Notes under the pieces: model-generated | Seen by the model: the letters and a program-made list of their open reading frames with translations, nothing else | What the model was told of the DNA's origin: nothing | Databases searched by the model: none | Position numbers and translations under genes: made by a program | Assembly (NCBI GenBank): GCA_017994695.1 | Contig: JAGOKF010000025.1 | Span: 1 to 45,111, forward strand | Source of the DNA: Myxococcota bacterium | Lineage (GTDB): Bacteria > Myxococcota_A > UBA9042 > DTJE01 | DNA: 45,111 bases | Reading direction: 5' to 3' | Part shown: in pieces, positions 20,528-24,291 of the stretch | Numbering within the stretch: position 1 is the first letter of the stretch | Layout of the letters: the number at the start of each line of letters is the position of its first letter

Positions 20528-21721
20528 ATGATCCGCAAGGCCCTGATCGAACGGATCTTCGAGGGGTTCTCCATCCAGCGCTGGAACGACATGGCCCGGC
20601 CGATGGACCTGGTGGAGATGGACAAGCATGGCCACAAGATGGCCCTGGCCTGGATGATCGCCCGGGAGGAGGAGGACCAGGGCCGGCCGGTGCACTGGAC
20701 CCACCTGGTGGAGGGGGCGATCTTCGAACTGTTCCGGCGCATCGTGATCGCCGACATCAAGGCCACCATCCAGCGGGACATCCGCCGGCGGTCGCCCGAG
20801 GTGGCGGCCCGCCTGGACGACTTCGCGATCCGGTCCATCGCGCCTCTGCTTCCCGACGAGGCCTTGCGGCGCCGGATGGCCGAATACCTGAAATCCGACG
20901 GGGATTTCGACCCGGCCGCCCGGCGGATCCTGGACGCCGCCCATGCCCTGGCGACCCGGTGGGAGTACCGCCTGCTGCGGCCGATCAACGGGATCAGTCA
21001 CCGGATTGAGGACCTGGACCGGTGGATGGAACGGGATCTGGACCCCCACCTGGAGATCGCCGGGGTCCGGAGCCTGGTCACCCGGGCTCCCCAGGCCGGA
21101 TTCGGGGACCTGGTGGCCCAGTTGCGCTTCCAGGTCCGGTGGAGCCAGACGCCCCGGGTGCCCCGGACCTCGGTCCTGGGTCACTCGATGTACGTGGCCG
21201 TGCTTGCCTTCCTGGTCCTCCGGGAGATGGGGGCCTGTCCCCGGCGGATCCGGAACGGGGTGTTCGGGGCCCTCTTCCACGATCTTCCGGAAGCCCTGAC
21301 GCGGGACATCCCCTCGCCGATCAAGGGGTCGGACCCGGGGCTCCAGGAGGTCATCGGGCAGATCGAGCGGGCCCTGGTGGAGGAGCAGGTGTACCCGCTG
21401 CTCCCGGAGGCCTGGGCCGCCGATCTCCGGTACCTGATCCAGGACGAATTCGCCTCGCGGGTGCGGGTGGACGGTGGGGTCCGGCCGGTCTCCACCGAGG
21501 CCATCCAGGCGGCGTACAACGAGGACCGGTTCGACGGCTACGACGGCGAGGTAGTGAAGGTCTGCGACCACCTGGCGGCCTTCGTGGAGGCCAGGGCCTC
21601 CCTGGACATGGGCATCCGGACGGCCCACCTGGAACACGGCGTCGGCCACCTGCGGGCCCTGTACCGGGACCGGACGCTGGCCGGGGTGGACCTGGGGGCC
21701 CTCTACGCGGACTTCGGGTGA
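20528..21721 (+). CDS. Two-part HD-domain protein, YfbR-like phosphohydrolase
   Basis: 397 residues. The C-terminal half carries the HD-phosphohydrolase motif in YfbR-like form: H of GHSMYVAVLA, then FHDLPEALTRDIPSPIK (the HD pair and following Glu), and a late CDHLAAF aspartate. YfbR is a 5'-deoxynucleotidase. The N-terminal half (MDKHGHKMALAWMIAREEE and EGAIFELFRRIVIADIK) looks like a second, more degraded copy with the HD dyad absent, an architecture I recall from uncharacterised HD proteins in Firmicutes. Substrate is therefore uncertain; a deoxynucleotide or nucleotide-signal phosphatase is the best guess. The gene has its own promoter and overlaps the end of the convergent radical SAM gene by 19 bases. 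Confidence 0.75.
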   Translation: MIRKALIERIFEGFSIQRWNDMARPMDLVEMDKHGHKMALAWMIAREEEDQGRPVHWTHLVEGAIFELFRRIVIADIKATIQRDIRRRSPEVAARLDDFAIRSIAPLLPDEALRRRMAEYLKSDGDFDPAARRILDAAHALATRWEYRLLRPINGISHRIEDLDRWMERDLDPHLEIAGVRSLVTRAPQAGFGDLVAQLRFQVRWSQTPRVPRTSVLGHSMYVAVLAFLVLREMGACPRRIRNGVFGALFHDLPEALTRDIPSPIKGSDPGLQEVIGQIERALVEEQVYPLLPEAWAADLRYLIQDEFASRVRVDGGVRPVSTEAIQAAYNEDRFDGYDGEVVKVCDHLAAFVEARASLDMGIRTAHLEHGVGHLRALYRDRTLAGVDLGALYADFG

Positions 21722-22857
21722 GGGTCCGGCGGGGTCGCCTCGGCCTCCTTCGCCTGGAGGTAGAGGCACCGGGCGAAGGAAGCGCCCGGTTCGGTATAGA
21801 GGTGCAACGCCCCGCCCCGGCACCAGTCCCAGTGATCGCAGGTCCCGCAGGGGCCCCGCCGGGTCCAGGATCGGTCCCGGAAGACCTGGTAGCGCCGCTC
21901 CCAGACGTCCTTCAACCGCTCCCGGCGGATGTCCCCCTGGTGGAAGGCCGGGGACAGTTCGGGGCAGGCCCCGATGTGACCGTCGGCCAGGATCCCGGCC
22001 ACCTCGACCCCGGCCCGGCACTGGGCCAGGTAGGGCCGGACCCGTCCCTCGAACCGCCAGCCCAGGAACCCCTCCTCCGAGTGCTCCGGCACGGGCAGCC
22101 GGGGGTCCTGGCGGGCCTCCAGGACCCACTCCAGCAGCGCGCGGACCTCGGCGGGTCCCGGCACCAGGTCGGGTCGTTCCCGGGCCCGGCCGATGGGCAT
22201 CACGGGGGCGACCCGCCACAGGGGCACCCGCATCCCGGCCAGCAGGGCCCGCATGCGTGGAAGGTGCGGGATGGCCGGGCGGGTCAGCGTCGAGAGGGCC
22301 TCCAGTTTCCCCGGGAAGCCGGCCTCCTGGAGGAGCCGGATCGCTCGGGCAGCGCGGTCGAAGGCCCCAGGTCCCCGCTGGGCGTCGTTGATTTCCGGGG
22401 GGCCGTCCAGGCTGACGGAGATCGACCCCATCCGGGCCTGGACCAGGGCCCGGGCGAAGGACGCGTCCAGCAGCAGGCCGTTGGTGACCATGCCGTAGGC
22501 GAAGCCCCGGTCCCGGAGGGCCTCGAAGACCCGCAGGATGCCGGGCTTCAGCAGGGGCTCCCCGCCGGTCACGGCCACCATGATGGACCGGGGGTCGAAG
22601 TCCCGGGCCACCTGGTCGATCACCTCGATCCACTCGGCGGCTTCCAGTTCGGTCCCGGGCCCCTCTCCCGTGCAGGAGGACCCGCAGTAGGCGCAGGCCA
22701 GGTTGCACCGGCGGGTCACCTCCAGGAAGAGGTAGCGGAGGGGGTGTTCCCGGGCCTTGTCGTCCAGGCGTCGTGCATGGGCCCGCCAGGCCTCCAGGTA
22801 CCTCTCCCGGGTCGTCGTGGGGCTCGGCGTCGGATCGCCGTCGGCCGGGTCGTTCAT
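21703..22857 (-). CDS. Radical SAM/SPASM peptide-modifying enzyme candidate
   Basis: 384 residues. The radical SAM cluster motif is CNLACAYC (CX3CX2C, Cys51, 55, 58). TGGEPLL (97-103) and SVSLDGPPE complete the core barrel. A SPASM-type C-terminus has Cys280, GX4C with Cys298, then Cys337, 340, 346 and 364; the usual CX2CX5CX3C run lacks its last Cys, so auxiliary cluster ligation may be altered. SPASM enzymes mostly modify ribosomal peptides or proteins. PLRYLFLEVTRRCNLACAYC resembles, from memory, the enzyme of the NCBIfam rSAM/lipoprotein system (TIGR04133). It starts 8 bases after the Cys-rich YGPPP lipoprotein gene with no strong ribosome site of its own, implying translational coupling. 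I infer that the lipoprotein is its substrate. Confidence 0.87.
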   Translation of the reverse strand: MNDPADGDPTPSPTTTRERYLEAWRAHARRLDDKAREHPLRYLFLEVTRRCNLACAYCGSSCTGEGPGTELEAAEWIEVIDQVARDFDPRSIMVAVTGGEPLLKPGILRVFEALRDRGFAYGMVTNGLLLDASFARALVQARMGSISVSLDGPPEINDAQRGPGAFDRAARAIRLLQEAGFPGKLEALSTLTRPAIPHLPRMRALLAGMRVPLWRVAPVMPIGRARERPDLVPGPAEVRALLEWVLEARQDPRLPVPEHSEEGFLGWRFEGRVRPYLAQCRAGVEVAGILADGHIGACPELSPAFHQGDIRRERLKDVWERRYQVFRDRSWTRRGPCGTCDHWDWCRGGALHLYTEPGASFARCLYLQAKEAEATPPDPHPKSA

Positions 22858-22865
22858 CGAGGGTC

Positions 22866-23624
22866 TCAGCGGGAGGGGCTCGGAGGAGGAGGCCCGTAGA
22901 GGATCACGACGGGCTCGTCCTTCGAGACGTCCGGGGGCTCGGCATCCGCCGCGTCCACCGGGGGCAGTTCCGTCGGTTCCACGACGTCCACCGGGGGCGT
23001 TCCCTCGGCGCACAGGTACCAGGTCCCCCCGGTGCAGGGATCGGTGACCGGGTGGGCCTTGTCGCAGTAGTAGTTCTCGCCCCAGGGGCGGCAGTCCTCG
23101 TCGCGGACGCAGGGAGGGGGCCCGTAGGCGACCACCGGCTCGCAGTCCCGGGACACGTCGGCCGGGACGTCCGGGGGTGCCACGTCCAGGGGCTCCACCG
23201 CGTCGCCCTGCCGGCACATCGGCCAGGCGACCGAACCCCCGCAGGGGTCCGTGAAGACGTTTCCGGTGTCGCAGTACCAGCCGCTGCCGTATTGCTGGCG
23301 GCAGTCCTCGTCGGTTTCGCAGGGCTGGGGACCGTAGTAGGTGACCTGGGGGCAGTCCCTCGGGAGGTCCGCGTTCGGGATCTGGTCCACTGGGGACCCG
23401 TCGCCAGGGTGGGCATCCGGTGGGGACGGGTCCGGCGCGAGGGTGTCCCCGGGATCGGAGACGTCCACGATGTCCACCGGAGAGGAGGAATCCTCGCCGG
23501 CGGGCGCCAGGCATCCCCCGCTCCCGGCGAAGAGGCCCCCGGACAGCACCATCGAGGCCCACCGGAAAACCCTGGCCAGGCCGCTGCGGCCCAGGTCGAT
23601 CAGCGCCATCAGCACCATCAGCAT
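22866..23624 (-). CDS. Cys-rich predicted lipoprotein with repeated YGPxP motif, candidate radical SAM substrate
   Basis: 252 residues from the ATG at 23624, which has GGAGGG 6 bases upstream (a TTG at 23630 is too close to that site). The N-terminal export signal ends in SGGLFAGSGGC with Cys38 as a probable lipidation site, though the lipobox lacks the usual Leu at -3. A long Asp/Pro/Ser linker follows (39-90). Two homologous units come next, residues 91-137 and 161-205, each with six cysteines in the same spacing and reading C-x4-5-YGPxPC-x3-DEDC...YYC/WYC...TDPC-GG...C. The last 17 residues restart the unit (DEPVVILYGPPPP) and stop right after the motif. I know of no characterised function. 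Tight coupling to the radical SAM gene suggests that YGPxP is modified; a surface or periplasmic location is likely. Confidence 0.8.
   Translation of the reverse strand: MLMVLMALIDLGRSGLARVFRWASMVLSGGLFAGSGGCLAPAGEDSSSPVDIVDVSDPGDTLAPDPSPPDAHPGDGSPVDQIPNADLPRDCPQVTYYGPQPCETDEDCRQQYGSGWYCDTGNVFTDPCGGSVAWPMCRQGDAVEPLDVAPPDVPADVSRDCEPVVAYGPPPCVRDEDCRPWGENYYCDKAHPVTDPCTGGTWYLCAEGTPPVDVVEPTELPPVDAADAEPPDVSKDEPVVILYGPPPPSPSR
22881..23354 (-). repeat. Protein-level tandem repeat: two six-Cys units plus truncated third, each headed by YGPxP
   Basis: Unit 1 at 23214-23354, unit 2 at 23010-23144, truncated unit 3 at the C-terminus. YGPxP motifs are encoded at 23322-23336 (YGPQP, preceded by another Tyr), 23112-23126 (YGPPP) and 22881-22898 (YGPPPP). 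Units are about 70 codons apart and separated by Asp/Pro/Val linkers (LDVAPPDVPADVSRD; VDVVEPTELPPVDAAD). The motif is kept even where the rest of the third unit is gone. Confidence 0.8.
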
Positions 23625-23653
23625 GGGCAACCCTCCGGACCGGGAACGACCAG

Positions 23654-23683
23654 ATTATAGGAATGCGGGATTCCGAAATGCAA
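23654..23683 (-). promoter_or_regulatory. Promoter of the lipoprotein-radical SAM operon, with inverted repeat in the spacer
   Basis: TTGCAT (23683-23678), 18-base spacer, perfect TATAAT (23659-23654); start predicted near 23647, 23 bases before the ATG. The spacer contains GGAAT-5 bases-ATTCC (23660-23674), a possible operator. Confidence 0.7.
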
Positions 23684-23715
23684 CGGGCCGGGAGGTGTCG
23701 GGGCCCGGCCGGATG

Positions 23716-24291
23716 CTACCGGGTCCCGGGACCGGGCGGCATCCCCGGAGGCGGCGTCCCGTAGTCCCGGATCAGCGCCCGGTCCCGGATGCCGTCCCGG
23801 ATCCGCTTGTCGGCCAGCGCCTGGGCGACCTCGGGAGGGAGCCGGGCCAGGGCATCCTTGTGCCGCAAGGGGGGCCGATCGGGTTCCGGGTGGACCTCCA
23901 GCGCGTCGCAGACCAGGATCACCCGGTCTCCCGAGTCCAGCCGGTCCACCACCCGGAGTTCGGCGCTGCCGCAGGTCCCCGGAATCCGGGGAAGTCCCGA
24001 GGCGGTGCGTTCCAGGGGGATCCCGGCCATCTTGTCGGGCCGGTCGTGGGCCGACACGAGCCCCAGGCGCCCGATCAGGTCCTCCTGACCCTCGGCCAGC
24101 AGGTGCAGCACCATCCGGCCGCTCTGCTGGACCAGGGAGAACGTGCGGTTCCTGGGCGACATCGCCACGACCACCCGCATCCGTTCCGGCACCAGGGTCA
24201 CCGGCATCACCCAGGTGGCGATCTGGGCCCCGTCGATTCCGCCGGCCCGGGAGGCGATGGCGAAGACCTCGTGGTTGGTCAGGTGGAACAT
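23716..24291 (-). CDS. Flavin reductase-like (FMN-binding split-barrel) protein
   Basis: 191 residues resembling the flavin reductase domain family. The N-terminal ATWVMPVTLVPERMRVVVAMSPRNRT matches the family strand-turn in which the first residues after the barrel start bind FMN. The HDRPDKMAGIPLERTASGLP segment and GDRVILVCDALEVH also fit. Such proteins reduce flavins or act as FMN-dependent oxidoreductases; substrate unknown. ATG at 24291 has GAGGAGG six bases upstream, excluding the upstream methionines. The C-terminal 15 residues form a Pro/Gly tail starting YGTPPP, which is odd given the YGPPP lipoprotein encoded next. It lies 71 bases downstream of the flippase gene. Confidence 0.78.
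   Translation of the reverse strand: MFHLTNHEVFAIASRAGGIDGAQIATWVMPVTLVPERMRVVVAMSPRNRTFSLVQQSGRMVLHLLAEGQEDLIGRLGLVSAHDRPDKMAGIPLERTASGLPRIPGTCGSAELRVVDRLDSGDRVILVCDALEVHPEPDRPPLRHKDALARLPPEVAQALADKRIRDGIRDRALIRDYGTPPPGMPPGPGTR

Follow-up and report, generated by a model that had tools for sequence, protein, structure and literature searches.

Two described systems stand closest to the locus considered here. The first is TIGR04133/TIGR04134, already known as an in-silico pair of a radical S-adenosylmethionine (SAM) enzyme and a lipoprotein; to our knowledge, no reaction has been assigned to it. The second is the splicease family TIGR04103, which we take to be the same as the IPR026482 of the splicease PlpX, and Scott et al. 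are said to have found in 2022 that spliced peptides and proteins are widespread. PlpX itself is named as a member of IPR026482 in a passage of PMC11002830 and, in the sections of PMC10533398 that deal with it, converts residue X of the sequence XYG, with MYG and LYG as natural sites and an engineered GYG that is also accepted; the tags derived from the PlpA2 core carry RPGYGLPI or RPLYGLPI, i.e., YGxP (same sections of PMC10533398). The products, spliceotides, are described as protease inhibitors (passages of PMC11117315 and PMC11002830). The window analysed here, a stretch of 45,111 nucleotides of a Myxococcota bacterium (assembly GCA_017994695.1, contig JAGOKF010000025.1), contains on its minus strand a two-gene operon in which a lipoprotein gene with three YGPxP motifs comes first and a radical SAM/SPASM gene second. 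On balance, and by a small measure, we favour reading these two genes as a multi-repeat, TIGR04133/TIGR04134-type system for protein modification that would excise tyramine at X-Y-G-x-P sites. The comparisons given below make it highly probable that the enzyme acts at YG; tyramine excision as its chemistry, proposed by analogy with the splicease, has in our judgement about an even chance.

The lipoprotein (252 amino acids; 22866-23624, minus strand, ATG at 23624, stop at 22866-22868) is the putative substrate. Its residues 1-37 (23514-23624, minus), delimited by eye, form an N-terminal leader and signal region ahead of the lipid-bearing Cys38, at which a lipobox-like sequence ends, and an MLMVLMALI-LGR...RW...LSGGLF-like pattern, also recognised by eye, is common to the N-termini of lipoproteins of the same order. 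Motif 1, YGPQP (YYGPQP, Y97; 23322-23336, minus), lies within the 12-residue loop CPQVTYYGPQPC, motif 2, YGPPP (AYGPPP, Y167; 23112-23126, minus), within the 12-residue loop CEPVVAYGPPPC, and motif 3, YGPPP (LYGPPPP, Y243; 22884-22898, minus), near the C-terminus. Pro occupies both Tyr+2 and Tyr+3 in motifs 2 and 3, and Tyr+2 in motif 1, where Tyr+3 is Gln; an extra YG, without Pro, occurs in QQYGSGW. An initial reading of the letters, which we call the sequence-only reading, had described two six-Cys units that each open with YGPxP and a third motif with no unit around it. Both units are there with six Cys each (C91-C137, 23214-23354, and C161-C205, 23010-23144, both minus), except that one Cys stands before each motif, and the third motif lies outside the Cys loops as described. 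That the radical SAM/SPASM gene follows 8 nucleotides after the lipoprotein stop and lacks a ribosome site of its own was also read correctly: no Shine-Dalgarno sequence was seen by eye upstream of its ATG. Because the gap is 8 nucleotides and a ribosome site is missing, translation of the enzyme is probably coupled to that of the lipoprotein gene.

The enzyme (384 amino acids; 21703-22857, minus, ATG at 22857, stop ending at 21703) has Pfam matches over the cut-off to Radical_SAM (2.3e-21) and SPASM (2.6e-07), and the two marks of SPASM-domain radical SAM enzymes, a CX3CX2C motif and a SPASM domain, are both present. Its top NCBIfam match is TIGR04133 (1.9e-87), followed by mycofactocin MftC and by TIGR04103 (110.9 bits, the cut-off of 725 not being reached). 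When the window enzyme was aligned with 43 of the 80 best-scoring named TIGR04133-like loci (44 rows), the radical SAM cluster motif CNLACAYC (C51, C55 and C58; 22684-22707, minus) proved to be kept in 44/44, as were C280, C298, C337, C340 and C346 of the SPASM region (C280-C346; 21820-22020, minus); a sixth SPASM Cys, C364, was recognised by eye in the window enzyme. The position of the CX3C Cys is Ala350 in the window enzyme and Gly, Ser, Ala or Pro across all 44 rows, and His352, two residues further on, is invariant. In a quick tree of 52 chosen radical SAM rows, rooted on TIGR04053, the window enzyme falls into one clade with both rows that score over the TIGR04133 cut-off (L040 and L041) and with Phocaeicola, Fibrobacter and other relatives (Shimodaira-Hasegawa-like approximate likelihood ratio test, SH-aLRT, 99). 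Among the matches listed, its closest named relatives come from metagenome-assembled genomes (MAGs) of Deltaproteobacteria and Myxococcales, and TIGR04133-like enzymes are found in many Bacteroidales and Fibrobacter genomes.

The lipoprotein side of the known pair was examined in Bacteroidota, where all four tested partners (L108, L119, L124 and L154) exceed the TIGR04134 cut-off and carry MYGTP, EYGTP or similar past the lipid Cys, so that the YGxP-like sequence which the sequence-only reading ascribed to these lipoproteins is indeed a feature of the formal members. Two species, Treponema saccharophilum and Parabacteroides distasonis, also have plasmid records in which the pair is annotated by name, with SCYGMP and CEYGSP, respectively. 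The window pair resembles TIGR04133/TIGR04134 in its best enzyme family match, in the adjoining lipoprotein, in the invariant residues shared by the 44 aligned enzymes and in YG(x)P past the lipid Cys; the feature of TIGR04134 members, a lipobox followed by YGxP, is thus present in the window lipoprotein. It differs in that the window lipoprotein has three motifs and Cys units, whereas TIGR04134 has one motif and a carboxypeptidase-regulatory-like region (named by eye).

Across genomes, the enzyme is repeatedly found beside YG lipoproteins. A neighbour was counted automatically if it lay on the same strand at ≤1 kb and had a lipobox plus either a YG ≤40 residues from the lipid Cys or ≥2 YG-x(0-2)-P, a combination that also arises by chance at times, as the opposite-strand rates given below show. 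The 80 named loci, which are the best-scoring TIGR04133-like ones and not a random draw, cover Bacteroidales, Fibrobacter, Myxococcota/Deltaproteobacteria, Krumholzibacteriia and one Ktedonobacter MAG, and 53 of the 80 have such a neighbour (opposite strand 6/80). Inspection of the 27 misses by eye, by a single judge and with no control, added 19 YG-bearing neighbours that look exported or for which export is not ruled out, which brings the count to 72/80; at least seven of the 19 (L111, L122, L136, L146, L150, L151 and L152) have no lipobox in the reading seen, and the start of the L102 protein is not settled. In the phylum, TIGR04133 is matched at 1e-60 in 32 of 377 genomes, and over its cut-off in two of the 377; the 42 matches at 1e-60, among which are both members of the window's own genus and two fragments in genome G110 that are perhaps parts of a single gene, have the neighbour in 29 cases (opposite strand 2/42). 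Of the 13 misses, L067 has seven YG by eye, L185 an IAIAP repeat and L193 a partial gene, and the rest have no YG lipoprotein in reach. TIGR04053, another SPASM family of the phylum that served as a control, gave 0/29 among the best-scoring loci of its search (opposite strand 1/29), and ten other radical SAM paralogues, three of which (L023, L034 and L036) are also among these 29 loci, gave 0/10.

Within the order, of which 14 genomes were sampled, five orthologues whose flanks are complete, among them the window enzyme, adjoin a lipoprotein with several YG motifs, as do six second-tier enzymes (38-42% identity), whereas four third-tier enzymes (34-36% identity) have no such neighbour; a sixth close orthologue, L039, is a contig-edge fragment with no YG protein visible and is not judgeable. 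A shuffle test, in which 240 YG were seen against 56.1 expected in 96 lipoproteins (a set that includes genes read from two loci), was set aside as main evidence, as the lipoproteins had been picked for containing YG; because of this pre-selection, the comparisons with the control family and with the opposite strand are used as evidence. The co-occurrence for which the sequence-only reading had proposed a test is thus found. The variation in motif number that it had asked about is found too, with one to about nine motifs in a chain and YG kept throughout. Because YG partners are widespread and the tested Bacteroidota partners are formal TIGR04134 members, the window pair is, on sequence comparison, a multi-repeat variant of the TIGR04133/TIGR04134 in-silico pair.

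Several architectures were distinguished by eye among the partner lipoproteins: one motif after the lipid Cys followed by a regulatory-like domain, in Bacteroidota and some Myxococcota; KYGGPP arrays after a twin-arginine-like signal; LYGPMPVD arrays; YGVPPD arrays; Cys-containing repeats; and the form seen in the window. Motif counts differ even among close relatives, with three in the window and three full units plus a motif beside the lipid Cys in L012 and L013. Cys-bordered loops occur in 7 of 13 loci examined, and 14 of the 15 loops are 12-mers, although the window and its sister contribute the same two loops to this count; residue X before YG is Y in six of them, A in four, F in two and G, S and W in the others, with YG constant.

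In the window's own genome (158 contigs, 3.96 Mb, 96.66% complete), the YGPPP DNA pattern occurs twice, both times inside the window lipoprotein gene. When the pattern was widened to YGxPP with a C among the two bases that follow, 12 matches were obtained, namely two in the window lipoprotein, one in a flavin-reductase-like neighbour, one in a fused radical SAM-lipoprotein on another contig and eight others. By eye, four of these eight are ordinary enzymes or regulators (glycosyltransferase-, AraC-, aspartyl-tRNA-synthetase- and Mfd-like), three are probable wrong frames, and the remaining one is a large protein of unknown kind. None of the eight showed a motif repeat in the stretch seen or a radical SAM motif within 1.5 kb either side, a reach short enough to miss even the enzyme part of the fused protein. 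The possibility, raised by the sequence-only reading, that YGPxP is common without the enzyme was rejected for this genome: YGPPP is confined to the window lipoprotein, and none of the eight other wider-pattern matches repeats the motif in the stretch seen.

The same motif recurs beside the splicease-like enzymes. On a Nostoc plasmid, a TIGR04103 enzyme (nif11-class maturase 3 in the Prokaryotic Genome Annotation Pipeline) adjoins a Nif11 precursor that ends ALYGLPPELF. TIGR04103-like enzymes occur at 1e-40 in 149 of the 377 genomes of the phylum, none over the cut-off, and 25 of the 30 best-scoring loci of that search have a YG lipoprotein by the automatic count (opposite strand 2/30); three more of the 30 have short peptides ending PLYGVVSDP, PLYGVPMPAEL and PMYGIPLPTEL. 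The first, at L180 (4751-4984), ends QPLYGVVSDP and lies ahead of the phylum enzyme that, among those found, is closest to the TIGR04103 cut-off; from its sequence, this peptide is likely a spliceotide precursor. At L074-L099, zinc-ribbon proteins of the form CxxCxRHVRxxxxCPFC with LYGAPPPDAG-like repeats lie beside TIGR04103-like enzymes. At 20 of the 30 loci, 32 such proteins were gathered by their zinc ribbon and not by YG; Gly follows 80 of their 83 Tyr that have a following residue, and 85% of the 80 sites have Pro at Tyr+3. In four TIGR04103-like enzymes (L027, L028, L029 and L030), the reading frame runs on through a hydrophobic segment and a lipobox to CxYG repeats, and one of them, L029 (G000:C71), which scores 6.6e-72 to TIGR04103 in its enzyme part, is a fused copy in the window's own genome. 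The repeats of the fused proteins are of the kind CCxCxYGxIPxExxxxCC, with a final CDYGxPPPPQCC. Judged by their reading frames, these are natural enzyme-substrate fusions, although L028, L029 and L030 may each be two genes, as an ATG or GTG is present in the junction; an internal start that would split the gene was rejected for L027, which has no ATG, GTG or TTG in the junction before the hydrophobic core. As a separate observation, some DUF1843 peptides beside TIGR03913-related enzymes (L233 and L234) have PYG near the N-terminus.

The window system is thus like PlpXY/TIGR04103 in its XYG target with Pro at Tyr+3 (GYGLP, LYGLPP), in its radical SAM/SPASM enzyme and in a motif borne on a ribosomal precursor, and like the zinc-ribbon and fused systems of the phylum in having a multi-YGxP(P) protein beside or fused to a SPASM enzyme, although those have another enzyme clade, a zinc-ribbon leader and other repeat surroundings. 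As far as the motifs can tell, two enzyme clades, TIGR04133-like and TIGR04103-like, share one target-like motif, and this likeness between TIGR04133 partners and splicease sites is what the present analysis adds.

It is reasonable to propose the following course of events. The enzyme would read the N-terminal leader of the cytoplasmic precursor and would act on each X-Tyr-Gly-x-Pro site, three per window chain; as radical SAM enzymes are cytosolic, this would take place ahead of export. Tyramine would be cut out at each site and alpha-ketoamides left behind, with Tyr as the excised residue, Gly as the acceptor and X merely homologised, a type of splicing that is favoured because Y and G are invariant and their neighbours variable. 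The lipoprotein would then be exported, lipidated at Cys38 and oxidised, and two of its three ketoamides would come to lie in the 12-residue loops between cysteines, placed in the envelope and able, perhaps, to trap proteases or nucleophiles. The loop disulphides and any protease function are the doubtful part of the proposal. These loops are like those of Bowman-Birk inhibitors in being short, Pro-rich, bordered by two Cys and variable at the putative P1 residue; no homology is claimed, the warhead is hypothetical and a Bowman-Birk-like role is speculation. Still more broadly, and with more doubt than belief, one might imagine that a whole class of exported proteins, spread over Myxococcota, Bacteroidota, Fibrobacterota and further groups and present in gut species as well, is backbone-spliced by tyramine excision at every XYGxP to give ketoamide arrays, the window subfamily being membrane-anchored covalent protease traps in which the residue before YG supplies the P1 side chain.

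A number of observations weigh against tyramine excision by a TIGR04133/TIGR04134-type pair. The likeness to that pair, which the sequence-only reading had drawn, holds for the enzyme's top match and for its clade, but neither window gene passes a family cut-off: the enzyme scores 293.5 bits where TIGR04133 is curated at 425, and TIGR04134 (curated at 39.8 bits) matched neither the window lipoprotein nor anything in its own genome; four multi-repeat lipoproteins scanned from relatives (L103 of Deltaproteobacteria and three of the order) had no family hit, TIGR04134 included. No NCBIfam family matched the lipoprotein at E≤1. Eight of the 80 best-scoring loci have no clear YG partner after inspection, L041, one of the two enzymes over the TIGR04133 cut-off, has a lipoprotein partner without YG, and five of the ten control paralogues (L020, L021 and L031-L033), which fall in the TIGR04103-like clade, have no YG partner in reach, so that such partners are not universal in that clade either. 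The sequence-only reading had regarded enzymes consistently adjacent to other substrates as evidence against itself; YG partners stand at most loci, but in the L019/L037 sub-clade, which belongs to the TIGR04133-like branch, the lipoprotein at L019 carries repeats of IAIAP[FY]D, and no partner was found beside the enzyme of L037. The replacement of YG by IAIAP[FY]D beside the L019 enzyme (L185) suggests, from the repeat sequence, a changed target.

The link to the spliceases is likewise open to objection. By score, TIGR04103 does not stand out as the next-closest family to the window enzyme; the TIGR04103-like enzymes form a separate clade (SH-aLRT 96), and the window partner is a lipoprotein instead of a Nif11 precursor. 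The CX3C Cys is absent from all 44 TIGR04133-like rows and present in L059, outside the alignment, although the difference between the clades is not sharp because only 8 of 14 TIGR04103-like rows keep it. PlpX acts together with PlpY. No PlpY-like gene is present in the window operon, which has no third gene, the rest of the genome not having been searched; the radical SAM gene ends at a convergent HD-domain gene, and the structural model shows only one helix ahead of the barrel. The Nostoc cluster has two further precursors without YG. Among the FtsZ tags described in sections of PMC10533398, only 2 of 16 variants were spliced, both with GYGLPI, and both RPLYGLPI variants were unspliced. Because most of these variants are not spliced, context beyond YGxP matters.

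Among the alternatives, another radical reaction at Tyr or the residues that follow it (a cyclophane or other Tyr crosslink, epimerisation, hydroxylation, or a thioether with a nearby Cys) survives best and retains an appreciable, if minor, probability. The nearest solved folds to an AlphaFold2 model of the enzyme (predicted local distance difference test, pLDDT, 91.5) are anSME and maturases of ribosomally synthesised and post-translationally modified peptides, the best matches including SkfB, anSME, SuiB, a sactipeptide maturase, ChlB, BlsE and PqqE, and a sequence search of the PDB for a splicease structure found no entry so named. These neighbours, like the nearest solved sequences, include enzymes with other chemistries, two of the three window motifs lie between cysteines, and the window enzyme falls outside the TIGR04103-like clade, all of which suits such a reaction. 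A thioether cannot be general, as many relatives were seen by eye to have no Cys near YG, and a crosslink to a fixed partner fits poorly with residues -1 and +2 that vary widely beside a constant Y and G, which suit XYG splicing better; moreover, tags on which a splicease has been shown to act contain YGxP as well.

Less probable, and in our view unlikely, is that YGxP stays unmodified as a docking or anchoring element of lipoproteins while the enzyme modifies another residue. The single motif of Bacteroidota does follow the lipid Cys closely, in a position that would suit a sorting signal, but up to about nine repeats per chain are hard to reconcile with docking, the short peptides beside TIGR04103-like enzymes carry the motif at their C-terminal end with little beyond it, and the neighbours of control radical SAM genes are without it. 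A mycofactocin-like reaction, i.e., oxidative decarboxylation of Tyr or formation of a carbon-carbon linkage, appears very improbable. In its favour, the substrate of the mycofactocin enzyme is a Tyr that has a Val beside it (passage of PMC8326336), and MftC is the second-best NCBIfam match (123.5 bits). A search for the mycofactocin maturase at 1e-60 in 188 genomes of the phylum found none, with the controls equally silent. Against it, the target of MftC is a C-terminal Tyr, whereas the window Tyr residues are internal and followed by Gly. Finally, the chance placement of a proline-rich low-complexity lipoprotein beside a radical SAM gene can practically be dismissed, for although Asp/Pro-rich linkers are plentiful in the lipoprotein and its relatives, the YGPPP pattern is limited to this gene in the assembly, the motifs are conserved in the sister species despite diverged linkers, and the co-occurrence extends across phyla against none in the control family.

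In the full-text literature searched, no paper was found that names TIGR04133, TIGR04103 or the product name of the lipoprotein, and, as far as that literature goes, we found no description of the multi-repeat Cys-loop variant or of a link between TIGR04133 and spliceases. The likeness to a demonstrated splice site yields a specific prediction for TIGR04133/TIGR04134, namely the loss of C8H9NO at each YG, so that an unexplained protein-modifying system is now open to testing. If tyramine excision is correct, this orphan pair would gain a function, bacterial envelope proteins would commonly be backbone-spliced by radical enzymes, some of them several times per chain, and TIGR04133-like enzymes would be new catalysts for installing ketoamides in proteins.

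Some features of the surroundings remain to be mentioned. A likely ribosome-binding site of the lipoprotein gene, GGAGGG (23631-23636, minus), was recognised by eye. The TATAAT promoter proposed in the sequence-only reading is half convincing: TATAAT (23654-23659, minus) terminates a 33-base block (23654-23686, minus) that is identical in the sister genome between diverged flanks and is the probable operon promoter, but its -35 element is poor and a sigma-70 consensus scan found no promoter. At the other end, the last 19 bases of the radical SAM gene (21703-21721) are shared with the end of the convergent HD-domain gene. The flavin-reductase-like neighbour (23719-24291, minus) ends ...RDYGTPPPGMPPGPGTR, its C-terminal DYGTPPP being found likewise in the sister species; this weakly supported case may be an extra target acquired by the system. 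Its homologues that do not adjoin the operon end in DFGTPKP in two relatives, and a third has neither ending.

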